A stretch of DNA of 32,501 nucleotides, from IMG/VR virus record IMGVR_UViG_3300008216_000046, positions 1-32,501 of that record. One strand, given 5' to 3'. This DNA comes from a virus. The position numbers were made by a program, and so were the translations under genes. Within the stretch, counting starts at the first letter, position 1; the number at the start of each line of letters is the position of its first letter. Under the pieces are notes generated by a model. It was not told the origin of the DNA and ran no database searches. It saw nothing but the letters and a program-made list of their open reading frames with translations. Of the stretch, positions 3,061 through 20,736 are shown in pieces.

Positions 3061-4741
3061 TAAAGTATATCAAGTAGTAAAGGGTGTAGCACCACGCTAT
3101 GCTGATGAGTCATTAGCGGCGGCAAAAGCTAGTGTACCTGTTGTGCAACCTAAGTTTTATGGCTATGATAAAGCCACAGGAGCATCAAGAAAGACCAATA
3201 CACCTGAACGATTCGGTGAGCTAAGACAGGAAGCTCATCAAACAGCTATGGGTGACGCCGCTAAGGGTGCCTTACATACTGCTAGTAGTATTAGATGGGG
3301 ACATATTTGGAGAGAAAATAGAGTTACTAAAAATATGTATGATAGGATTACTCCTTACATTGACGAAATAAAAGAGACTCTTGACCCCAGAACTATAAGA
3401 AGAGCCAATAAAATGATAAAGGCTGAACAAAGGGGACCATTCCTTGAGGATTTATCTACTGGCAATATGAATAGTAGTAATGTTAGAAGGACATCTAAAC
3501 ATTATGAAATGGATACAAGGTATCTCCAAGATGAAGCACCTGAGTTATTTGAACACGCTATGAAAAGACAAGGGTGGAATCTAGATGGTACAGGACCACT
3601 AGATAAGCTTAAACCTATGCTTATTAGACCTAAACCAAGTGCAGGTAATGCTAACTGGCAAGACATACAGAAGGACGAAAATGTAAAGTTTATACAGTAC
3701 TTATTACATCAAGGTAAAAAGAATAAGTTAAGTCTTGAAGAAGTACAAAAATGGTTTGATGATGATTGGTCAGATTTTATAGTGGGTCAGATAATGAAGA
3801 AGAATAACGGGACTCGTGGTAGACCACTCTGGACCAGAGAGATGACTATAAAGAGCCTTAAAATGAATGGTGGTATGCCTAGGACACAAATAAAGAATGG
3901 TAAATTATATATTGACCAAGTTATTATGTCTAGTGACCAGACTATGGGGTTTGCTCCTGTTAGTATGGAAGTCGGTCGTAATGGTCAAATAAAAGCATTG
4001 GTACACGATGTGTGGGATAATGGTACACCGGGTAGTCCTTTGTGGCAAATGTGGACAGGTAACCAACAAAACTTAGTGTTAAGTCATAGTAAAGTATTTA
4101 ATCTAGAGCCTAGTATATTAAACCTAAGAAAGACAGAGATGTGGGGTAAGGTACAGGCTAAGATAAAAAGAACAGTTAAGAATCCTGAAAGAGCAGGTCA
4201 AGGTAAGGATATTGTTGAAGCGGCTAAGATACAGTACAATGGTGACCATCAGGCTATGTCCGATGAACTTCTTGCCAGACTAGAGACATATCTTAATTAT
4301 CAAGTTAAGCATAATGGTAAGTCACCACTCCGTGCACTAGATGAAGTAAGTCAAAAATTAGGCTCAGGAGATACCAGAAAAGTAGATAAGAAATGGCTAC
4401 AGGAGATAATGAGTAACGATGATATGGTAGCCGTTGATGCTGATGCTTCTATAATTATTGCTGGAGCTAGAGCAAAAGCAGATAAATTTAAAGCTAATAA
4501 GAAGCCTTACAATAAAGAACAGTTGAAAGATATGAACCTTAATCAAAAGATTACTACATCTATGAGTAAGACAGAGAGTAAGGCACTCAAGGAAACAATG
4601 TCATTTTTTAAGAAGATGGAGAATGAAGAATTATCTAACGAAGCGGTCCAAGCATTTATAGATAGAAGAGTTATGCCAATAGCTTTCGGTGGAGCACTTG
4701 CTGGTTCTGGCTACACTATCTACAAAAAATCCCAAGAATAG
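3035..4741 (+). CDS. Large hypothetical protein, probably virion-associated
   Basis: This 568-residue protein is read from the ATG at 3035; a GTG one codon upstream is an alternative, and neither has a strong ribosome-binding site. Composition is Lys/Asn/Met-rich and mostly helical, without a recognisable enzymatic motif. A short hydrophobic segment with small residues (IAFGGALAGSGYTIY) lies about 20 residues from the C-terminus and could be a membrane-active helix. It is the last gene of the left plus-strand cluster and is followed by a terminator. Its size and its position behind the large virion protein suggest a second internal or ejection protein; this is inference. Confidence 0.7.
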   Translation: MLDKAKILNKVYQVVKGVAPRYADESLAAAKASVPVVQPKFYGYDKATGASRKTNTPERFGELRQEAHQTAMGDAAKGALHTASSIRWGHIWRENRVTKNMYDRITPYIDEIKETLDPRTIRRANKMIKAEQRGPFLEDLSTGNMNSSNVRRTSKHYEMDTRYLQDEAPELFEHAMKRQGWNLDGTGPLDKLKPMLIRPKPSAGNANWQDIQKDENVKFIQYLLHQGKKNKLSLEEVQKWFDDDWSDFIVGQIMKKNNGTRGRPLWTREMTIKSLKMNGGMPRTQIKNGKLYIDQVIMSSDQTMGFAPVSMEVGRNGQIKALVHDVWDNGTPGSPLWQMWTGNQQNLVLSHSKVFNLEPSILNLRKTEMWGKVQAKIKRTVKNPERAGQGKDIVEAAKIQYNGDHQAMSDELLARLETYLNYQVKHNGKSPLRALDEVSQKLGSGDTRKVDKKWLQEIMSNDDMVAVDADASIIIAGARAKADKFKANKKPYNKEQLKDMNLNQKITTSMSKTESKALKETMSFFKKMENEELSNEAVQAFIDRRVMPIAFGGALAGSGYTIYKKSQE

Positions 4742-4907
4742 TGATGGATTACCTCCTTATCCTACCGTTAGAACCAGCATTTTTTCAAAACGAATTGAGA
4801 TTTGGTAGTTTTAAGTGAAAAAGCTTAAAAAAAAACGTAAAAACCCGTATTTAATTTTTGGTAAAATTTTCGATTCCTTTAAGACCTAAATAAAAAAAAG
4901 GAAGTAT

Positions 4908-4935
4908 AGGGGACTGACAGAAGAGCCAGTCCCCT
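4908..4935. terminator. Bidirectional intrinsic terminator between convergent operons
   Basis: A perfect 9-bp stem (AGGGGACTG with CAGTCCCCT) closes a 10-base loop. Reading plus, TTT follows directly; reading minus, an eight-T run lies about 10 bases beyond the stem (the A-run at 4892-4899). It lies between the plus gene ending at 4741 and the minus gene ending at 4953, so it can end both operons. The rest of 4742-4952 is AT-rich and I see no gene in it. Confidence 0.8.
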
Positions 4936-4952
4936 TTGCTACTGTATATACG

Positions 4953-5174
4953 CTATGGCAATAAGGATATAGCAGGAGCAACAATACTGTTAAAATAACC
5001 ACAGCCTTCGTTTACCTTACAAGGTTTACCAGCAAGGTCTGTGTCTAACCATTGGTTTAGGTAAGGTTTCTTACCTTCTTTACGTTCTATACGCATCATT
5101 ACTGCGTCACAATTACCGTTGTTCCAATTAGCACAATGGTTACGGGCTCGGTTCAAATTGGTAGCTCTGTTCAT
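4953..5174 (-). CDS. Small cysteine-containing phage protein
   Basis: This 73-residue protein starts at an ATG with GGAGA four bases upstream. Four cysteines occur as two pairs (HC..NC and PC..GC), with a final EGCGYFNSIVAP segment. The pairs suggest a small zinc- or disulphide-stabilised fold of a kind seen near phage nucleotide-metabolism genes. It is the last gene of the leftward operon before the terminator, and its start lies within the end of the upstream gene (overlap 5140-5174). Function unknown. Confidence 0.6.
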   Translation of the reverse strand: MNRATNLNRARNHCANWNNGNCDAVMMRIERKEGKKPYLNQWLDTDLAGKPCKVNEGCGYFNSIVAPAISLLP

Positions 5175-6458: not shown

Positions 6459-6654
6459 CTAGCTTTGCCTTTTTCTTACGATAATAAGAAGATTTCAATA
6501 CTTTACTTTCATAAAATGAATCTCTTACTTGAAGATATCTCTTATATCCAGAACTATTTTCTTTAAGTTTACCTTGTTTTATTAAGTTCTCGTAAAACAG
6601 TACAAGTCCCCTTTTAGATATTTTACTGTCAACTCCGTTTCTTATCTTTTCCAT
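6442..6654 (-). CDS. Small basic hypothetical protein
   Basis: This 70-residue, very Lys/Arg/Tyr-rich helical protein is read from the second ATG (6654), which lies six bases after GGGAG; an ATG at 6660 directly abuts that site and is less likely. Its 3' end overlaps the HNH start and its 5' end overlaps the upstream gene by 26 bases. The charge suggests nucleic-acid binding, but no motif supports a specific function. Confidence 0.55.
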   Translation of the reverse strand: MEKIRNGVDSKISKRGLVLFYENLIKQGKLKENSSGYKRYLQVRDSFYESKVLKSSYYRKKKAKLDAIKE

Positions 6655-6901
6655 TTTCATCTCCCGGGTCTCGTGGTGATACCCATTTCGTATCCTTTAT
6701 TGCATCATCATTTATACCGAAGTCTTTTCGTATTTCATCGAATATATGTCTAACATTCTTTTCAAATACAGTCAATACTTCACGTGTAACTTCTACTGCA
6801 ATCCCCTCTATTGCGGAATCATAATTTAATTGACATCCTTTATATTTGCGTAATGTCTTTTGGATTACTTCATAGAATCCTAATGTTCTTTTTTCTTTCA
6901 T
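6629..6901 (-). CDS. Hypothetical protein
   Basis: This 90-residue protein starts at an ATG six bases after AAGGAG. It is predicted mostly helical with a charged, Lys/Asp-rich C-terminal tail (GDENGKDKKRS). It is the first gene after the strong hairpin at 6917-6951, so its expression may depend on read-through of that structure. I do not recognise the family. Confidence 0.6.
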   Translation of the reverse strand: MKEKRTLGFYEVIQKTLRKYKGCQLNYDSAIEGIAVEVTREVLTVFEKNVRHIFDEIRKDFGINDDAIKDTKWVSPRDPGDENGKDKKRS

Positions 6902-6916
6902 ATTTTTCTCCTTGTT

Positions 6917-6951
6917 AAATGGGGGCTAACTCGACCAGCTAACCCCCATTT
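6917..6951 (-). terminator. Strong GC-capped hairpin, possible attenuator
   Basis: A 9-bp inverted repeat (AAATGGGGG with CCCCCATTT) with a 17-base loop sits between the HTH gene stop (6956) and the ribosome-binding site of the next gene. In the minus direction only a short TTT follows, so it may be a leaky terminator or an mRNA-stabilising end rather than a full stop. Confidence 0.6.
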
Positions 6952-6955
6952 ATTG

Positions 6956-7165
6956 CTACGCTAATGTATACTCAGCGTACTTGTTGCCAGTGTGACTTTT
7001 AACTCGTTTGGTCTTAATAGCGTGTCCTTCTGTTCGCAGTACATTAATTACTGCGGCAAGTCGAAAACAACCACACCGATTTAATGCCATCATTGGCGTA
7101 ACAGGTATACCCTGCTTGAGCAAGTCTAAGATAATTAGCTTTTGGCTAGTATTACGTCTTGGCAT
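6956..7165 (-). CDS. Phage-associated helix-turn-helix protein
   Basis: This 69-residue protein is read from the ATG at 7165, six bases after GGAGAG; the longer TTG-initiated frame lacks such a site. The sequence QKLIILDLLKQGIPVTP, then ALNRCGCFRLAAVINVLR, then a G..I.T segment and YAEYTL matches the winged helix-turn-helix layout of the small phage HTH family (HTH_39 type): helix, turn, the conserved GC.RLAA recognition helix, and a beta wing. It probably binds DNA as a regulator. The long hairpin after its stop separates it from downstream genes. Confidence 0.75.
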   Translation of the reverse strand: MPRRNTSQKLIILDLLKQGIPVTPMMALNRCGCFRLAAVINVLRTEGHAIKTKRVKSHTGNKYAEYTLA

Positions 7166-7368
7166 ATATTGCTCTCCGAAACTACTGGGTGTAAATGAAT
7201 CCCGAATTTCCAAATGGAAACTGAGAAATCAAGAGCCTTAGTGCTCATTGTCTTTCCATTATATTGCATTCTGTTGTTTTCTTGATATACTACACCGAAT
7301 TGGAAAAACCTAAATAGTGTAATATAGAAACCTCCATTAACAATGAAAATGTCCAGAAATTTACTCAC
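7135..7368 (-). CDS. Hypothetical protein
   Basis: This 77-residue protein starts at a GTG that shares a base with the TAG of the Gp157-like gene (TAGTG), five bases after AAGGAGG, so the start is well supported. The N-terminal part is aromatic and hydrophobic (IVNGGFYITLFRFFQFGVVY); whether it is a membrane segment is uncertain. Its 3' end overlaps the HTH gene start by 31 bases. Function unknown. Confidence 0.5.
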   Translation of the reverse strand: MSKFLDIFIVNGGFYITLFRFFQFGVVYQENNRMQYNGKTMSTKALDFSVSIWKFGIHLHPVVSESNICQDVILAKS

Positions 7369-10492: not shown

Positions 10493-11368
10493 CTACTGTT
10501 TCTCCTCTTTATAATTAAGTATTTCATCACATACTGTTTTATAGTCAAACGGAAGTTGCTTCTGATTCAAAGGCTTGAGTCTAGAGCCAACGACTCTTTC
10601 ATCATAAGCCTCAAATGAAACATAGAAACCACCGTCATCTTTCTTAGCTGTAATATATCCTATTACATCGGCTTTAGCGGCAAGAGAATACCCGAGTCCT
10701 CTCGGGAGCTCAGGTCCTAATTGTGCTTTACCATCAGTTACAACTGTAGACTTTGCGTGTGATATCAATACCAGATTTCCACCTTTTTGTTTTATCAGAC
10801 TTTGGAATCTTTTAATTACGTCAACATTCTTCCGTCTGGCTTTACCCCAGTCGGCTCCCCATTGACCTTCTCCCATTGCTGATATTCCCAGTTCCTCACA
10901 GACTGTAGTTTCAATCCATTCATTTACCTGTCCGATAGTGTCTATAACTATTGTCTCATAAGGCAACGTATCCCACGCTGTCGCTAACCAGTTGTAAACT
11001 TCTATTAATGAATAGGCATCAATAGGTTTACCTTTATCTTTACCAGTACGTGCTAGGAAACCACGTTCATTTGGTGGGATTACTTCTGTTTGCGGTACAC
11101 CACCCTTAGTGACCTGCTTATCTTCGTGTAAGACAGGTCTCATAGGTGGATTTAAGGAAGAAATGGTAACCGCATTGACGCCATCTACGAAATCAGAACC
11201 TAAGTCCGTATCTAATAGAATGACTCCATCATTTCCTTTGTCAGACCATCTGCTTGACGCAGTAGTCTTACCCGTTTTGGGTTGTCCGATTAGAAACCAC
11301 GTTAGACCGGATGGCATTGCTTTCCAGTCCGTCGAGACTTTCCTCACGGTTATGTTGGGTGCTTGCAT
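10493..11368 (-). CDS. Sak4-like RecA-fold ATPase (AAA_24 type)
   Basis: This 291-residue protein is read from the ATG at 11368, six bases after AAGGAG; an ATG two codons upstream abuts that site. Walker A is GQPKTGKTT (about residues 29-37), followed by ILLDTDLGSDF. Walker B-like TIVIDTIGQVNEW is at about residue 140. GGNLVLISHAKS follows, the sensor segment common to RecA-core phage ATPases. Sak4 proteins assist single-strand annealing and recombination, usually with an ssDNA-binding partner, here plausibly the next gene. Its first about 100 bases overlap the 3' end of the E1-like gene in another frame. Confidence 0.75.
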   Translation of the reverse strand: MQAPNITVRKVSTDWKAMPSGLTWFLIGQPKTGKTTASSRWSDKGNDGVILLDTDLGSDFVDGVNAVTISSLNPPMRPVLHEDKQVTKGGVPQTEVIPPNERGFLARTGKDKGKPIDAYSLIEVYNWLATAWDTLPYETIVIDTIGQVNEWIETTVCEELGISAMGEGQWGADWGKARRKNVDVIKRFQSLIKQKGGNLVLISHAKSTVVTDGKAQLGPELPRGLGYSLAAKADVIGYITAKKDDGGFYVSFEAYDERVVGSRLKPLNQKQLPFDYKTVCDEILNYKEEKQ

Positions 11369-12047
11369 TAGCATCTCCTTCAGGTTTTGGTACTACAAGA
11401 GTACCATATTCGACCATATTTGGGTTCAGGCTGGTCCAAATGTAGTCATAATATGCCAGATTTGCAATAATATTATATACTTGGGAAACACCAAGAGATA
11501 CTATATGCTGTGTGGCAAACACTGTATGTTTCATAGAACAAGGAGCTTCTGGAACACTATCTGTAGGAATCCATTCCTTCATATAATTATCCATATCCTT
11601 GGTTACAGTAGACATCTCTACTGTTGTTGCACCCATCCGTAAATCAATTAAGAACTTACGGTTGTCTTGTAGCTTCCAATCTTCATACACTAATTTTCTT
11701 GACTCCATATCATCTGTACATACAATCATCATAGGCAATACAACTGAACCATATTGGAAATTTCTTTCCGGTCTAAATTGTTGCCAGTCTTCTGCATATT
11801 CTTTATGTAAGTCAACTGCCGCATCCTTTTTAAACTTGCCTGTTTGATACAAAGGATACGCCGTAGTACTTAAGTTATGGTCCTCTACTCTATCGCTGTC
11901 ATAACCCCAAATAGACTGCCAGCCCATCATAGTTAAACTTTGAATCATAAAAGAACCAATACCACCGAGACCTACTACACCAATCTCAGTTAATTTAGGT
12001 AAAGGAATTAAATCCTTATTCCTTAGGAATCTTGTTTCCATTGCCAT
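11268..12047 (-). CDS. E1/ThiF-like ubiquitin-activating enzyme
   Basis: This 259-residue protein has a Rossmann-type adenylation domain. The nucleotide-binding VVGLGGIGS is at residues 24-32, and the E1 signature YDSDRVEDHNLS at 49-60 provides the Asp that contacts ribose and the HNL counterpart of the usual SNLNR. CTDDMESRK at 110-118 is the following ThiF-type motif. Cys170 in APCSMKHTVF is the candidate thioester cysteine. Such enzymes adenylate the C-terminus of a beta-grasp protein and pass it on as a thioester. The zinc-binding CxxC pairs of MoeB/ThiF are absent. The last 35 residues look disordered and overlap the Sak4-like gene by about 100 bases. Its partners Ubl, E2 and JAB lie upstream in the same operon. 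Confidence 0.85.
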   Translation of the reverse strand: MAMETRFLRNKDLIPLPKLTEIGVVGLGGIGSFMIQSLTMMGWQSIWGYDSDRVEDHNLSTTAYPLYQTGKFKKDAAVDLHKEYAEDWQQFRPERNFQYGSVVLPMMIVCTDDMESRKLVYEDWKLQDNRKFLIDLRMGATTVEMSTVTKDMDNYMKEWIPTDSVPEAPCSMKHTVFATQHIVSLGVSQVYNIIANLAYYDYIWTSLNPNMVEYGTLVVPKPEGDANASTQHNREESLDGLESNAIRSNVVSNRTTQNG

Positions 12048-12463: not shown

Positions 12464-12497
12464 ATACACTCCTTATTTATTAAGTTAAGTTAATCAA

Positions 12498-12604
12498 TAG
12501 GGGTATCCGGCTTTCTCACCAGTTGTACGGCTCGGTGCGGTACAGGGCTCACGTATCCGGTTTTATTACATACTGGCTTCAACCCCTACTGAAAGCGTGA
12601 GGGG
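12498..12604 (-). ncRNA. Candidate structured or switch-like RNA between JAB and the coiled-coil gene
   Basis: This GC-richer stretch of the 12470-12677 gap has several complementary segments. TAGGGGT (12498-12504) pairs with ACCCCTA (12582-12588). The same CCCCT (12583-12587) can instead pair with AGGGG (12600-12604), so the two folds exclude each other. Inside, CACC/GGTG (12517-12520, 12534-12537) and TGTAC/GTACA (12524-12528, 12540-12544) cross as in a pseudoknot. GTATCCGG is repeated directly at 12503 and 12553. I see no open reading frame here. A leader or riboswitch-like control of the downstream coiled-coil and E1 genes is possible; minus strand is assumed from the operon. Confidence 0.4.
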
Positions 12605-12677
12605 ACCCTTTAGCAAGAGCCCCCCCGGTACACTATCATACAGTTGAAGGTAATGTGGAAGGCATTACAATAGTGCA

Positions 12678-12866
12678 CTAATATCCATAATAGCCAGACA
12701 CATATAAATGTGGGTCTATATCAGGACACTCCTTACGGATGTCTTCAGTAAATTGATGTTCGTCTATTTCACAATTATTCAATTTATTAAAGATAACATC
12801 TGCTTTGACCAGTTGACTACCTAAGTCAGCTTCCCCGATAGGTGTATTGTCTTCTGGTCCTTCGGC
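12678..12866 (-). CDS. -1 frame extension of the JAB protein
   Basis: Reading on in the -1 frame from the slippery site gives 62 codons ending at TAG (12678-12680). The peptide starts AEGPEDNTPIGEADLG, continues through a probable helix (LVKADVIFNKLNN) and ends HLYVSGYYGY. It has balanced amino-acid use and no start codon or ribosome-binding site of its own, so it makes sense only as a fusion to residue 227 of the JAB protein, giving a 289-residue product. The alternative is that the extension is the normal end and one base of the A-run is a sequencing error. Confidence 0.7.
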   Translation of the reverse strand, partial: AEGPEDNTPIGEADLGSQLVKADVIFNKLNNCEIDEHQFTEDIRKECPDIDPHLYVSGYYGY

Positions 12867-12886
12867 TTTTTTTCGTCATCTACTCC
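12807..12886 (-). promoter_or_regulatory. Programmed -1 ribosomal frameshift signal in the JAB gene
   Basis: On the minus strand all three dnaX-type elements are present. A Shine-Dalgarno-like GGAG (12883-12886) lies 10 bases before the heptamer A AAA AAG (12866-12872), which is in the correct phase (gaA AAA AAG). Six bases later a stem starts: GACCAG (12854-12859) pairs with CUGGUC (12807-12812), continued by GAC/GUC and ACCUA/UAGGU with an apical loop. The zero-frame stop falls next to this upper stem. Spacings match the known E. coli dnaX arrangement. Confidence 0.75.
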
Positions 12887-13546
12887 ACTAATTCGATTGT
12901 ACCCACCCCAGCCATTATAATAACCACCATAACGACTGTCATTCTGGGTATTAAGGATGTTAAGCTGACCATTCTTGTTATAAACAATCTTAGTCTTCTT
13001 GTTTTCCTTCTCAATCTTCTTTGCTTCTGCTTTCCATTCTTTAGGAACATCCATTTTATAGTCAGCAACTACATCGCCTTCAATAAAATTTGGAAATCCA
13101 AAGTGGTCCCTGTAACTAACACCCGTACAAAATTCATCTTTGTCAGACGCAACTACTGTCGTGAAGAACAGACCTTCTAGAGGTGCTTGTTCTAACGCTG
13201 TGTCTTTATCGGTACCACTAAAGAACGCTCCCATATTATGATGAGAATGTATTAACCCTAGATAACAATTCTTCAATTTCTTGTTTTCCTTGTATATCTG
13301 TGGCAATATTTTGCCCAATTTCTCACCATCAATCTCAGTTTCTGTTGCGTGACCTAAGTCTATTGCAACGAAGTGATTGAGACTAACTTCTGACGGGAAG
13401 CCATTCTTTTCACGCTTATTTACTCCATACCAAGCTGGTCCAGACCACTCTTTACTCTTAAAACGAGTCAAGAGATAATTGATTTTCTGGACTATTAGGT
13501 CTGGTAGGTTCACCGTAAGCGTCAATTTGTTTGCTTCGTTTGTCAT
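12821..13546 (-). CDS. JAB/JAMM-family metallopeptidase (deubiquitinase-like)
   Basis: This 241-residue zero-frame product starts at an ATG six bases after AAAGGAG. It has a complete JAMM zinc-peptidase motif: Glu33 in KEWSGPAWYG, then His100-Ser-His102, seven residues, Ser110, two residues, Asp113 (LIHSHHNMGAFFSGTD). Such enzymes cut isopeptide or peptide bonds after a ubiquitin-like protein, either maturing it or removing it from targets. Residues 165-195 are Lys/Glu-rich, followed by a Tyr/Gly-rich stretch (YGGYYNGWGGY). The start overlaps the end of the E2-like gene by 89 bases. A frameshift signal at codon 227 can replace the last 14 residues with a 62-residue extension. Confidence 0.9.
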   Translation of the reverse strand: MTNEANKLTLTVNLPDLIVQKINYLLTRFKSKEWSGPAWYGVNKREKNGFPSEVSLNHFVAIDLGHATETEIDGEKLGKILPQIYKENKKLKNCYLGLIHSHHNMGAFFSGTDKDTALEQAPLEGLFFTTVVASDKDEFCTGVSYRDHFGFPNFIEGDVVADYKMDVPKEWKAEAKKIEKENKKTKIVYNKNGQLNILNTQNDSRYGGYYNGWGGYNRISGVDDEKKPKDQKTIHLSGKLT

Positions 13547-15044
13547 CAGTAACTCCTTTATAGAGAGCTTTCAGGTAATTCTGAAAAAACTCAAGGGCAT
13601 CTACCTGAAATTTGACCCTGAATTCTGTAACTAAGCCATTAGTGTCATAATTATCTAACACTAATCCCATTTGATTGACTATCGTTCTATATTCTTCTCC
13701 CATTTGCTCTCTTTTCTTAATGGGACGAATACTGTCGTCATTACGTAAGCTTATCCAACCAGACATTATCTGATGTGGATTAAACGAATCAATCACTTGC
13801 TTGAATAAGGGACCAAATTCCCTTATACGCCATATGAAATACAGAACTTTAAAAACCTCTGACTTCATAGGTCTTGTCATACCTGCGGCACGTAAACACC
13901 ACTCACCAACTACTCTATTTACTTCATCATTTTGCATATATACTTTATTTGTTATATCTGTTGGTGTCAGATAGATACGAGTCCTTGCATTAAGTACTTC
14001 TTTAATCTCAGGATAACTCTCATTATCACGATGTGTAAATTGATTAAAGCGATACTTTAAGCCATCAAATGAATTAGGTATACTAAATACTCTGTCCTGA
14101 GCAAACGGGTCGTTACCAGTTCTTATTACACCTGTAAAAGATTGTTCAATCCAAGCATATCCATTAAGTTTATGCGTATTGTATATCTCATCCAGACATT
14201 TACTCATTCCTTCGTTATAAAGTTTCTCTAACATTTGATGCCAACCGTGCATTCGGTCAACTTCTTTGTCTTCTGTGTCTGTTTCATACCTTAAAGTACC
14301 TTTATAAACACAATAAGCCATTAAAGCTTTCTCCCAAGTAACACCCATCGCCTCAAGTTTCTCTTGAGTTTCATCATTACGCATCCAACTGTCAAAATGC
14401 CGCATAATTAGATTGCCACCTAAATCATTTACGATAGCTCTTGCCATCTGTGATAGATATAGCCACTCTCTAAATTGCATACCTCTGCGTCCTTGCATCT
14501 GCCCACTACGTTCAAAACTTCTATGCTGAGTATTAACATCCCAGAAACAATCAACACGTGTCCAAGTATTTAGAAACGCACTAGATATATTCATTAGTGC
14601 AGGTATGTTTCCTTGATTAACTGCTGTAGAAAATGGTCTACCGTAATCACCTAAACAAGGACTTCCATCTGCTGAAATATGTGGATGAACACTCAATGGC
14701 ATATTAGTATCTTCACGTCTGTAGCTTAACCTACGTCTGAGGTCCCACCATTTTTCATAATTGTCTTCATCTGGTTTAATGAGTACTAAACTAGGCTCAT
14801 ATAAACTGAAGTCTAATGAATGTGGTGGTAATGTTAGATGACGTCTTGCCCTCATCTTTGGGTTCCCAAGTCTTACTCTAAAGCTTTTAAACCTTTTACT
14901 TGGGCTGTGGAATTGTACTCCACGCTCTACCAATTCTTCTACTTTCGCTCTTGCTTGATTAACATTCAAACGAGCACGCTCCATAGAATTCTTGGAATTT
15001 AATACTAGCCATCTTTCTGCTAGTTTAGCTAGAACTCTGTTCAT
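13458..15044 (-). CDS. E2-like ubiquitin-conjugating protein with long C-terminal region
   Basis: This 528-residue protein starts at an ATG seven bases after AAAGGAG. Residues about 55-140 read as a UBC-like core ending in LSVHPHISADGSPCLGDYG. His120 and Cys130 are ten residues apart, exactly as in the eukaryotic HPN...CL catalytic motif, with HPH in place of HPN. Cys130 would carry the Ubl thioester. About 390 residues follow that are helical and Trp/Met/Arg-rich with no motif I know, far longer than a normal E2 (about 150-170 residues). They may give target or virion specificity. It lies directly after the Ubl gene and overlaps the JAB gene. Confidence 0.75.
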   Translation of the reverse strand: MNRVLAKLAERWLVLNSKNSMERARLNVNQARAKVEELVERGVQFHSPSKRFKSFRVRLGNPKMRARRHLTLPPHSLDFSLYEPSLVLIKPDEDNYEKWWDLRRRLSYRREDTNMPLSVHPHISADGSPCLGDYGRPFSTAVNQGNIPALMNISSAFLNTWTRVDCFWDVNTQHRSFERSGQMQGRRGMQFREWLYLSQMARAIVNDLGGNLIMRHFDSWMRNDETQEKLEAMGVTWEKALMAYCVYKGTLRYETDTEDKEVDRMHGWHQMLEKLYNEGMSKCLDEIYNTHKLNGYAWIEQSFTGVIRTGNDPFAQDRVFSIPNSFDGLKYRFNQFTHRDNESYPEIKEVLNARTRIYLTPTDITNKVYMQNDEVNRVVGEWCLRAAGMTRPMKSEVFKVLYFIWRIREFGPLFKQVIDSFNPHQIMSGWISLRNDDSIRPIKKREQMGEEYRTIVNQMGLVLDNYDTNGLVTEFRVKFQVDALEFFQNYLKALYKGVTDDKRSKQIDAYGEPTRPNSPENQLSLDSF

Positions 15045-15107: not shown

Positions 15108-15308
15108 TCAGCCTGAAGTTACCTTGCTAGTGGTAAAAGAAACGAAATCATCATCCCTTAGTTCACTATCAAGAGCTACTTTGTCTGAATTCACAGTTAT
15201 GGTGGCATTCTCTACTGAGATACCCAGTTGTTCAGCTATACTAGCTGGACTTGTTGCATCAACAGTTTTGACTGTTCCACCGAAGGTTTGTACAAGTACT
15301 TTAGCCAT
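15108..15308 (-). CDS. Ubiquitin-like beta-grasp protein (ThiS/MoaD-type)
   Basis: This 66-residue protein has the size and pattern of a ThiS/MoaD/PRTRC-C-type beta-grasp fold: a first hairpin (AKVLVQTFGGTVKTVD), a helix (SPASIAEQLGI), strands ATITVNSDKVAL and a terminal strand DDFVSFTTSKV. It ends in Thr-Ser-Gly, a single C-terminal glycine. The family's C-terminal glycine is what an E1 adenylates. It precedes E2-like, JAB and E1-like genes in transcription order, which strongly supports a role as the conjugated modifier. With the glycine already terminal, no processing peptidase would be needed. The ribosome-binding site is weak (AAGG about 12 bases upstream). Confidence 0.8.
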   Translation of the reverse strand: MAKVLVQTFGGTVKTVDATSPASIAEQLGISVENATITVNSDKVALDSELRDDDFVSFTTSKVTSG

Positions 15309-16116: not shown

Positions 16117-16367
16117 TATGCCTCCTTTACATCTGCAAGACAAATAAAAGGACCGTCCTCATCGACATCCACATCCCAGTCCGAAGACTGGGAGTGAACA
16201 TCTGTACTCATCTGTGCGTCAATCTGTGCGTCAATGACTTCTTCTATAGACTTCTCTGTTTGGGCTATAGCGTCCGTCAATTCTTGGATAGTCATATCCA
16301 TTGCTTCTTCCAATGTGAGATTCAAAAGTTCACAGGCATATCCCACGACACCTTTAACGGCACCCAC
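16116..16367 (-). CDS. Small acidic hypothetical protein
   Basis: This 83-residue protein starts at a GTG that shares a base with the TAG of the 46-residue gene upstream (TAGTG). It is helical (LTLEEAMDMTIQELTDAIAQ and EKSIEEVIDAQIDAQ) with a strongly acidic stretch (DWDVDVDEDG). No family recognised. Translation is probably coupled to the upstream small gene because no strong ribosome-binding site precedes it. Confidence 0.55.
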   Translation of the reverse strand: MGAVKGVVGYACELLNLTLEEAMDMTIQELTDAIAQTEKSIEEVIDAQIDAQMSTDVHSQSSDWDVDVDEDGPFICLADVKEA

Positions 16368-16507
16368 TAGGATGCCATCCCAACAGATGCCCTTGCTCTT
16401 TTAAAAGCAGTGACCCTGTTATCAGCACGCACTGAAACAATGCGTCCCTTGATGATGAAATACCAAAATGGCATTTCTTTTTTACTGTTGTCCTTTGATT
16501 TAGCCAT
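16367..16507 (-). CDS. Very small basic protein
   Basis: A 46-residue frame reads MAKSKDNSKKEMPFWYFII, then KGRIVSVRADNRVTAFKRAR, ending in GMAS. The ATG lies six bases after AAAGGAGG, and the stop overlaps the next start as TAGTG. The layout (short strand, basic helix) suggests nucleic-acid binding. The strong ribosome-binding site and exact junction make it convincing despite its size. It is the first gene after the large structured non-coding block. Confidence 0.65.
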   Translation of the reverse strand: MAKSKDNSKKEMPFWYFIIKGRIVSVRADNRVTAFKRARASVGMAS

Positions 16508-16589
16508 TTCTGACCTCCTTTAGTTAGGGTTACAACAAAATAAAATCTTTCCGTCTTACATCTTCATACCATTTATGATTTCAGGTCTT

Positions 16590-17130
16590 CTTGAATGCGG
16601 ATACTGTCCTTCGACAGAAAGTATAAATGATGCAACATATCAGACTTAAACCGCAACCTGAGTCTTTCGACTACGGGTTCCTGCTCCGCTAGTTGGAGCA
16701 AGACAGTTGGTTAGTGCTTACCTGATAATAAAGGGTTGTTTTGGTTTAGTGCCCTTTCGGGTCACGTTAATGCCTATCCTGCTCATTACTGAGTTCCATT
16801 ACAATGTTAGTTGCATTTAGAATCAAGACCACGCTCGATTACTCAAGCTTAAGCCTAATGACTTCCAGATATTGTGCTTTAGGGGACAACATTCCCCTAC
16901 ACTTGACATCCCGGCATAGAAGACTTTTATCTTCTAATTTGCCCTTACGTACATCCATTTCATTACGACTATCAGTAGTGATTTCGACCACCGATACCTA
17001 GCACCTGCTATACTTCCCAGCATAACAACCCCTAAGATGAATGCCCTTGGTAACCGCCTTCTAAGCATTTAGTTATCGTTCCAAGGATATGCTTTCGTAT
17101 GATAACACGGCGTGTACACCGCCAATGCTA
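16590..17130 (-). ncRNA. Candidate large structured ncRNA, promoter-distal part
   Basis: I see no credible gene between 16508 and 17605. This part holds many perfect stems: 16604-16617, 16661-16672 (GAAA loop on minus), 16682-16700, 16749-16765 (GAAA), 16782-16793 (GUAA), 16880-16899 (7 bp), 16917-16936 (7 bp), 17045-17086 (CCTTGG plus TAAC). GGGTTGTT (16733-16740) pairs with AACAACCC (17024-17031), an 8-bp helix enclosing 283 bases. Three GNRA loops appear only when read on the minus strand, which sets the likely direction. Size and density of helices fit giant phage RNAs such as GOLLD or ROOL, but no consensus was tested. Confidence 0.6.
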
Positions 17131-17169
17131 CCTTACTACATCATTTAATAATTAAATAAAACTTTAATA

Positions 17170-17600
17170 GAAGTGGGGCAAGCAGACATTACTATCCACT
17201 CACCCCAACTTGGGTTTGGGCTTTTGAGCCACCTTGTCAGTAAACTGACTATCTTTATGTTCTCGGTATACGGGAACGCTACCCGTCATCGACTACTGGT
17301 TGTTCGTAGAGGTAATAGTTGAACAACATATTGCACCAGACCGAATATTTGGAAGAGCTAATACCAACAGGCATTCACGTAAATGGTAGTCAACCCTGTG
17401 ATTTCAGCCACAGTTTTAGATACGTGGGCAACGACCCAAGCTCTTCGCTTTCGTACAAATCTTTATAACCCCTTGACTCACGATTCCTTTAACGTAGGTT
17501 TGATAAAATAAGGTACCTATGCCTGTGTGTGGCTGGGCAGAGGAGAAGTGAGCTATCACCTTCATTCTCGTGCCCAACGCACAGGTTTGAGTACCTTACC
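17170..17600 (-). ncRNA. Candidate large structured ncRNA, promoter-proximal part
   Basis: A long rod (17512-17595) nests GGTAC/GTACC, CCTGTG/CACAGG, GGGC/GCCC and an inner GTGA/TCAC hairpin. GAAGAGCT (17352-17359) pairs over distance with AGCTCTTC (17439-17446), enclosing three hairpins (TACCA/TGGTA 17362-17388; CTGTG/CACAG 17396-17413; TGGG/CCCA 17425-17438), so a four-way junction. Further stems are GTTGTTC/GAACAAC (17299-17327), ACGGG/CCCGT (17270-17286), GTCAG/CTGAC (17236-17249) and GGCT/AGCC (17219-17230). An AT-rich linker (17131-17170) separates it from the other part; the two may be one RNA of about 1 kb or two. Confidence 0.6.
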
Positions 17601-17605
17601 AAGTC

Positions 17606-17968
17606 CTACTTGGGAGAGGAGGCATTAGCGACTTCCATCGTACAGTCAGGCTTGACTGGGCGGTAGAAGTATGCCTTGCTCGCAGGAAGGTCGAGTTCGG
17701 TGTTGGGTTCTAAGTCTATGACTTTGAACTTCTGATACTCTGTATCAGGTACAAACACCAAGTCGGGCTTCTGAGAAGCAAGGTCGCTAATGGCGTCGAC
17801 TTCGAGGACGGCTGGTAACGTAATGTCAGTATCACTGCAAGTGATTCTGATATTGTCACTGGGTATCCAGCGACCATTACGGTCAGTCTCGTGTTCGAAG
17901 ACGCCTTTCACAAGGGAACCACGGTAAGTATTCGATACACGTATCGATATAGTTTTCGTGTTTGCCAT
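17606..17968 (-). CDS. Beta-rich hypothetical protein, first gene of the leftward operon
   Basis: This 120-residue protein starts at an ATG with a weak AAGG about 10 bases upstream. It is rich in beta-prone residues, with repeated strand-turn patterns (TISIRVSNTYRGSLVKGVF and DNIRITCSDTDITLPAVLEV) and an aromatic end (AYFYRPVKP). It may be a small beta-barrel, but no family is recognised. It has slightly higher GC than its neighbours. A hairpin (CCAAGT/ACTTGG, 17599-17613) encloses its stop codon. It stands between two structured non-coding regions, so it may be expressed on its own. Confidence 0.6.
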   Translation of the reverse strand: MANTKTISIRVSNTYRGSLVKGVFEHETDRNGRWIPSDNIRITCSDTDITLPAVLEVDAISDLASQKPDLVFVPDTEYQKFKVIDLEPNTELDLPASKAYFYRPVKPDCTMEVANASSPK

Positions 17969-20179: not shown

Positions 20180-20736
20180 CAGATAGAGAGGTAAAATTTG
20201 AGAATTGGTACATTGTTAAGAACTTATTCTCAGATGATGAAATAGAGCAGTTATTCCAAGATATAGAGGTATTGCCTAAAAAGAAGGCTAATATACTGTC
20301 TGGTGAGGATAATGATTACCGTGAGAGTATGATTAAGTGGATTCCTAAGTTTAATAGTGATACCTATGGATGGATATACGAAAAAGTATGGAAATGGGTA
20401 GATATCGCTAATAAGGAACTCTGGGACTTCGATTTAGTAGGTATGAGGAATGATGCCCAATATACAGAGTATAACCAAGAAGGACACTATGATTGGCATA
20501 TGGATATACTAGGAAAGGGTATAAATCATAGAAAAATCTCTATCACGGTTCAATTAAATAAAAACTTTAAAGGTGGCGAGTTAGAGTTTAAATTCGGAAA
20601 GGGTTCGGAGAAAATAGCTTTAGAGAAGGGAGATGGTGTTATATTCCCTTCTTTCTATTTACATAAGGTAAATCCCGTAACGTATGGTAAAAGGAAAAGT
20701 CTAGTACAATGGATTTCGGGGAAACCGTACAAGTAA
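20146..20736 (+). CDS. 2OG-Fe(II) oxygenase (prolyl-4-hydroxylase-like)
   Basis: This 196-residue protein has the double-stranded beta-helix oxygenase signature: GHYDWHMDIL provides the His-x-Asp iron ligands (about residues 118-120), and FYLHKVNPVTYGKRKSLVQW near the C-terminus provides the distal His and the Arg/Lys that binds 2-oxoglutarate. GGELEFKF lies between them. The enzyme would hydroxylate a protein or small molecule using 2OG, O2 and Fe(II). Such genes are frequent in aquatic phages, but targets are mostly unknown. It overlaps the TerL gene by 28 bases. Confidence 0.8.
   Translation: MVDRALESYLVTDREVKFENWYIVKNLFSDDEIEQLFQDIEVLPKKKANILSGEDNDYRESMIKWIPKFNSDTYGWIYEKVWKWVDIANKELWDFDLVGMRNDAQYTEYNQEGHYDWHMDILGKGINHRKISITVQLNKNFKGGELEFKFGKGSEKIALEKGDGVIFPSFYLHKVNPVTYGKRKSLVQWISGKPYK

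Follow-up and report, generated by a model that had tools for sequence, protein, structure and literature searches.

Genomic setting of the gap

The window, that is, the whole stretch of DNA that was analysed, is itself the record of an uncultured virus, 32,501 bases in length. Genes for the large terminase, a P22-like portal and the major head protein are read rightward, starting at 20709. The genes below 17968 are read leftward; among them are a ubiquitin-like gene set and genes for a primase-helicase and an AAA protein. A gap at 16508-17605 sits within this leftward operon. On one side it is bordered by the stop of gp120 (17606-17968, minus strand), a 120-aa upstream gene of unassigned function, and on the other side by the start of gp46 (16367-16507, minus strand), a downstream gene encoding a small 46-aa protein with a WYFI motif. 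The sequence AAGGAGG is found ahead of the gp46 start at 16514-16520. The original prediction that no credible gene crosses the gap was confirmed, as the longest reading frame in 16508-17605 was 65 aa on the wrong strand and no frame was conserved in the corresponding gap of relatives.

Relatives were gathered using gp120, gp71, the terminase and the ubiquitin-like protein (UBL) as scan queries, resulting in more than 120 related phage loci, with gp120 and gp46 used as synteny anchors. The gene order terminase - gp266 - gp212 was kept in one direction and gp120 - gap - gp46 - gp83 - gp86 - gp71 - gp110 - UBL in the opposite direction. The gap is conserved in place, flanked by the same two genes.

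The leftward operon encodes a 66-aa ubiquitin-like/ThiS-like protein, a 528-aa protein without a Pfam match, a Prok-JAB protease (E 2.7e-6) and a ThiF/E1-like protein (E 7.6e-9), located at 15108-15308, 13458-15044, 12821-13546 and 11268-12047, respectively, all on the minus strand. Judged by these predicted products the operon carries what looks like a complete set for ubiquitin-like conjugation, and this set is conserved across the phage family. A second long stretch with no frame of at least 70 aa (351 nt, 12470-12820) was observed inside the same operon, and a comparable frame-free stretch is present in relative L006 at 11125-11495.

Minimum free energy (MFE) compared with shuffled sequence had been suggested as a check on structure in the gap. 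The minus-strand MFE of the gap was -351 against -294 +/- 9 for shuffled sequence (z -6.2), and the part described below as C RNA reached z -7.1. For the gp120 coding region at 17606-17968 an unusually stable fold was predicted whichever strand was taken (z -8.8 and -7.5), more stable than that of the non-coding block. Single-sequence MFE was rejected as a diagnostic because a coding region scored lower still, a result which by itself would suit a spacer with incidental hairpins. The decisive evidence for structure in the gap is comparative.

A large RNA with a conserved fold

A large structured non-coding RNA of about 523 nt, designated C, lies at 16625-17147 on the minus strand and is supported by alignment A4. 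This alignment is a modest set of 11 copies of C, about 46-91% alike, several of them closely related (up to 91%). The consensus, including a pseudoknot, contained 141 pairs in 27 helices. Covariation among related phages, proposed in the original prediction as a check, was extensive. Consensus pairs were canonical in 91.2% of 1496 cells, compared to 38-41% when partners were slid by 1-3 columns, and 93 pairs had changes on both sides. Doubly changed cells numbered 262 against a mean of 82 in shuffles, and the covariation score was 0.530 against 0.08-0.10 for slid partners. None of 500 shuffles reached the value of C for canonical pairing, double changes or covariation.

Folding of the consensus by RNAalifold with ribosum scoring gave an energy of -158.7, compared to -51.8 +/- 5.0 for 60 column-shuffled alignments. 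The complementary strand folded more weakly (-101.6), and G-U pairs in the consensus numbered 237 for the minus strand but only 29 for the complement. C was assigned to the minus strand because of the G-U pairs and the folding energy. The same strand asymmetry bears on the idea that the structure is an origin, packaging or recombination site acting as DNA, with no role for an RNA. Single-stranded DNA can form inverted repeats too, and the GC skew of the record switches sign near 17.2-17.5 kb; G-U pairs, however, would gain no preference in DNA, and the far better minus-strand energy is likewise at odds with such a site, which is considered highly improbable.

A held-out test was performed in which the structure was derived from eight distant homologues, leaving out the window, L002 and L005, and then scored on those three. 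Pairing was found in 74% of cells for the window, 67% for L002 and 73% for L005, compared to 36-46% with slid partners. Where both bases were unlike the training consensus, 101 of 141 cells still paired. Covariation and held-out prediction together refute the reading of the gap as a spacer with chance hairpins, and syntenic conservation also speaks against it, so that the probability left to it is negligible. A dozen or more related phages share the fold of C, while its sequence diverges among them.

Anatomy of C

All positions given here are window coordinates on the minus strand. C is closed by a terminal stem of 17146-17139 (AAAUGAUG) with 16632-16625 (CAUCAUUU), the pairs of which were read by eye. 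The sequences of this stem differ between groups; UUAGGAGU/ACUCCUAA was read in the same way in L005 and UUGAGAG/CUCUCAA in L034. A T7-type promoter considered at ATTAAGGGAG, at the start of C, was dropped, as this sequence makes up the 5' strand of the stem that closes C. A search for a phage RNA polymerase found none, and its controls were also silent.

An inner helix (17093-17089/16635-16631) belongs to the consensus; in the window alone, its 3' end runs into the terminal stem. Four further helices were 100% paired in A4, namely 17044-17037/16958-16951, 16909-16905/16774-16770, 16871-16868/16778-16775 and 16726-16720/16645-16639. A long-range helix between 16942-16948 (5' strand, GUAAGGG) and 16728-16734 (3' strand) was paired in 77 of 77 cells, with double changes in five of its seven pairs. 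A different long-range helix, 16733-16740 with 17024-17031, had been proposed and proved to be spurious, since only 0-50% of its pairs could form in ten homologues; its 3' strand partly pairs with 16942-16948 instead. The core is multibranched, and terminal hairpins complete the interior.

A systematic search for helices beyond the nested structure returned one strong case, a 7-bp covarying pseudoknot missed by the original prediction. Its 5' strand, AGAAGGC (17056-17062), lies within a hairpin loop and pairs with GUCUUCU at 16918-16924. The pseudoknot was 96% canonical in A4 with 15 doubly changed cells, and its covariation score of 0.59, against 0-0.18 for slid partners, was reached by none of 500 shuffles. 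The same pairing can be read directly in the sequences of L135 and L136, both outside A4.

Among the hairpins that had been pointed out from the window alone, the one at 16749-16765 was kept in all homologues, with an invariant GAAA tetraloop cap in 11 of 11 rows and a stem that shows C-G/U-A covariation. The GUAA hairpin noted at 16782-16793 does occur, with a loop and pairs that differ between homologues, and the GAAA hairpin at 16661-16672 is present in the window but otherwise only in L002. GNRA-like loops occur at four hairpins of C (GAAA in 11/11, GUAA/GUGA/GCAA in 11/11, GGGA in 10/11 and GAGA in 8/11). An internal loop consists of CCUAAG or close variants and bears a resemblance to half of the 11-nt tetraloop receptor. 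GNRA caps and receptor-type internal loops are used in tertiary contacts. A compact tertiary fold of C is suggested because of the GNRA loops and the pseudoknot.

The size of C, its GNRA loops and the receptor-like internal loop may also recall group I and II introns and RNase P, and C could accordingly be viewed as the remnant of a self-splicing intron or as a self-cleaving ribozyme. Against this, the intron, ribozyme and RNase P models of Rfam all failed even at E values of 5-10, C is intergenic, and an intron-encoded protein is absent. A catalytic RNA is regarded as very unlikely.

Distribution and position among relatives

A nucleotide profile built from the gap of the window and L002 detected remote copies of the 3' half of C in many relatives, and its iteration gave 13 distinct copies. 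Pattern scans of viral contigs added L133, L135 and L136; the 3' half and the pseudoknot are both present in the latter two. R1, a covariance model built from the 3' half, was run on 50 related virus records and detected C in 11 of them with E values of 1e-39 to 1e-69. Three additional weak matches (E 0.006-0.05) are probably due to chance. Those R1 matches whose position was placed were all on the operon strand.

Six records (the window, L002, L006, L022, L034 and L095) have C flanked by gp120 or its counterpart on one side and by gp46 on the other, and in L133 a gp46-like start follows directly after C. In L051, L072 and L108 it was located between gp71 and UBL. The material 5' of C differs between phages. 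Action in trans is inferred because C remains unaltered next to different neighbours, at either of the two operon sites.

Accompanying elements

An element of about 95 nt, designated B, was found separate from C at 17352-17446 on the minus strand. The original prediction that a helix between 17352-17359 and 17439-17446 closes a four-way junction was borne out, as the helix is kept in two other phages, where B recurs at 6182-6302 of L072 and 2723-2854 of L022 (both minus strand). Over the three phages the mean column identity of B was 73%. The junction sequences are strongly conserved (GGGUCGUUNCCC, AUCUAAAAC) and the stems compensated, the hairpin stem showing double changes. B is a candidate for a riboswitch-like or protein-binding element. 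An iteratively widened B profile was discarded, as it drifted into the gp46 coding region.

A third element, A (17497-17595, minus strand), consists of a rod hairpin of 84 bases (17512-17595) and a conserved TATTTTATCAAACC following it at 17497-17510. The rod, already noted in the window, is real and recurs elsewhere after the same gene with different stem sequences. In about 30 distinct relatives A always followed gp120, or the counterpart of this gene, whatever comes next. The rod stem varies in sequence between phages, and the tail is near-invariant (TATTTTATCACACCYAC; conserved TATTTTATCANACCYAC). A is thus a family-wide signal that probably serves as a terminator and/or processing site. 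A terminator-like hairpin of 15 pairs is located between B and C in the window sequence (17174-17207, minus strand) and was not found among homologues.

In L022 B follows C on the 3' side, and in L072 it precedes C by more than 1 kb. Because the order of B and C changes between phages, the block is regarded as a cassette of separable RNAs. It is a string of three or more such elements, all on the minus (operon) strand, and forms an RNA cassette between two phage genes. The proposed giant phage RNA therefore stands in the form of C, a large, ornate and conserved minus-strand RNA, but not as a single RNA of 1.1 kb.

The main rival to action in trans is that C, as well as B, forms a long 5' UTR structure controlling translation or termination of the next gene in the operon. 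C is often directly 5' of a ribosome-binding site, ending only a few tens of bases before the Shine-Dalgarno sequence and start codon in L006 and L095, and the A element, like the terminator-like hairpins, points to transcription signals close by. The downstream gene differs, however, being gp46 at one site and another gene before UBL at the other, and the distance from C to gp46 in the window is 118 nt. With 520 nt, a closing stem and a pseudoknot, C is also far larger than usual riboswitch aptamers, and B and C can change order (L022) or be apart (L072). A leader acting in cis is unlikely on balance, more so than the trans-acting RNA, and still the most probable of the rivals.

At the gp120-gp46 site of L014, L016 and L038, all of which are without C, another structured RNA of about 450 nt, designated D, was found. 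In these three sequences 88 pairs were formed in all three phages, 33 of them doubly changed, and the folding energy was -227.7 compared to -161.8 +/- 7.4 for shuffled sequence. No profile similarity between D and C was observed.

Comparison with known RNAs and phages

C shows extensive covarying secondary structure with a pseudoknot, as expected of a large ornate non-coding RNA. It had been suggested that the block is a giant RNA such as GOLLD or ROOL, or else a new class, and OLE and HEARO had been named among the models to search with. Rfam scans at gathering score and at relaxed E values gave no family match, only hits at chance level, and OLE and HEARO were without a match in the full scans. 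Covariance searches with GOLLD (RF02032) and ROOL (RF03087) found neither in any of 14 C- or D-bearing records at E <= 10; the GOLLD search gave weak sub-threshold signals in five control genomes, indicating that it ran, while no positive control signalled for ROOL. In the general identification of neighbourhood genes, neither IscB nor an OLE-associated protein was noticed. Membership was thus not supported, and the alternative of a new class was retained. A match to the SAM-III riboswitch at 16505-16601 (minus strand), over the gp46 Shine-Dalgarno sequence, scored 18.7 bits of the 45 required (E 0.79) and is probably due to chance.

GOLLD is a large pseudoknotted non-coding RNA of phages and prophages with unknown function, a conserved 3' part and a variable 5' part (PMC12286853). 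C is similarly large, pseudoknotted and phage-encoded, with variable preceding 5' material. Unlike GOLLD, which exceeds 800 nt and is often associated with tRNAs, C is about 523 nt and has no tRNA in or beside it, and its secondary structure was derived independently here. No tRNA or tmRNA was found in the window, and 14 relatives scanned contained one tRNA-Leu, in L117, a record with D and without C. ROOL, of about 580-660 nt, is phage-encoded, contains pseudoknots, forms RNA-only cages and has no known function (PMC12286853). C is similar to ROOL in size, pseudoknot and phage origin, and differs in lying away from any tRNA island. With OLE and HEARO, which are large ornate bacterial RNAs, C shares its kind only.

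No DNA similarity to the window was found in 50,697 phage records, and L108 gave one trivial match of 26 nt; no sequenced isolate of a cultured phage had similar DNA. A pattern scan of bacterial genomes returned four matches, all chance by profile score. In the literature, covered incompletely so that an earlier description of C is possible, only the work on GOLLD, ROOL and OLE was comparable (PMC12286853). C matches no family catalogued in Rfam and appears to be a large viral RNA of a new class.

Proposed role of C

The best explanation is that C represents a new class of large structured RNAs acting in trans, to which a probability of roughly three in four is assigned. C is co-oriented with the replication and ubiquitin-like operon, as a cassette-mate of the terminator-like A and the small junction RNA B, and would be transcribed together with the operon. 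The transcript would then fold, perhaps after trimming, into a discrete compact RNA bounded by the terminal stem, and its change of position points to action in trans.

Given a real RNA, the leading guess for its role, put forward tentatively and at somewhat less than even odds, is a structural scaffold or particle made during infection, RNA-only or with protein, by analogy with GOLLD and ROOL. Loop-receptor and loop-loop contacts could mediate self-assembly or the binding of a host or phage factor. To our knowledge, bacteria and phages have only a few known RNA classes that are this large and complex. Ordered assemblies made of RNA alone were recently discovered for GOLLD, ROOL and OLE, a finding of yet open generality (PMC12286853). 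As an apparently unrelated new class with a fold proven by covariation, defined ends and natural variants, C would offer a direct test case.

One slot filled by either C or the unrelated D suggests that phages swap large RNAs like protein cassettes. A bolder proposal, held with a little less confidence than the scaffold, is that C founds a new class of RNA-only or RNA-protein assemblies of uncultured phages, in a swappable cassette beside the ubiquitin-like operon, where one slot would be filled with either C or D in different phages, and B may or may not accompany them. If true, such slot-swapping would fit a rapidly evolving RNA used against, or recruiting, a host factor.

Other long gene-free stretches were observed in relatives, at 6563-7301 and 7599-8255 of L079, 4020-5230 of L051, and 3964-4980 and 5668-6595 of L072. 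Those of L051 and L072 contain C or B plus several hundred extra bases, which may be more RNAs.
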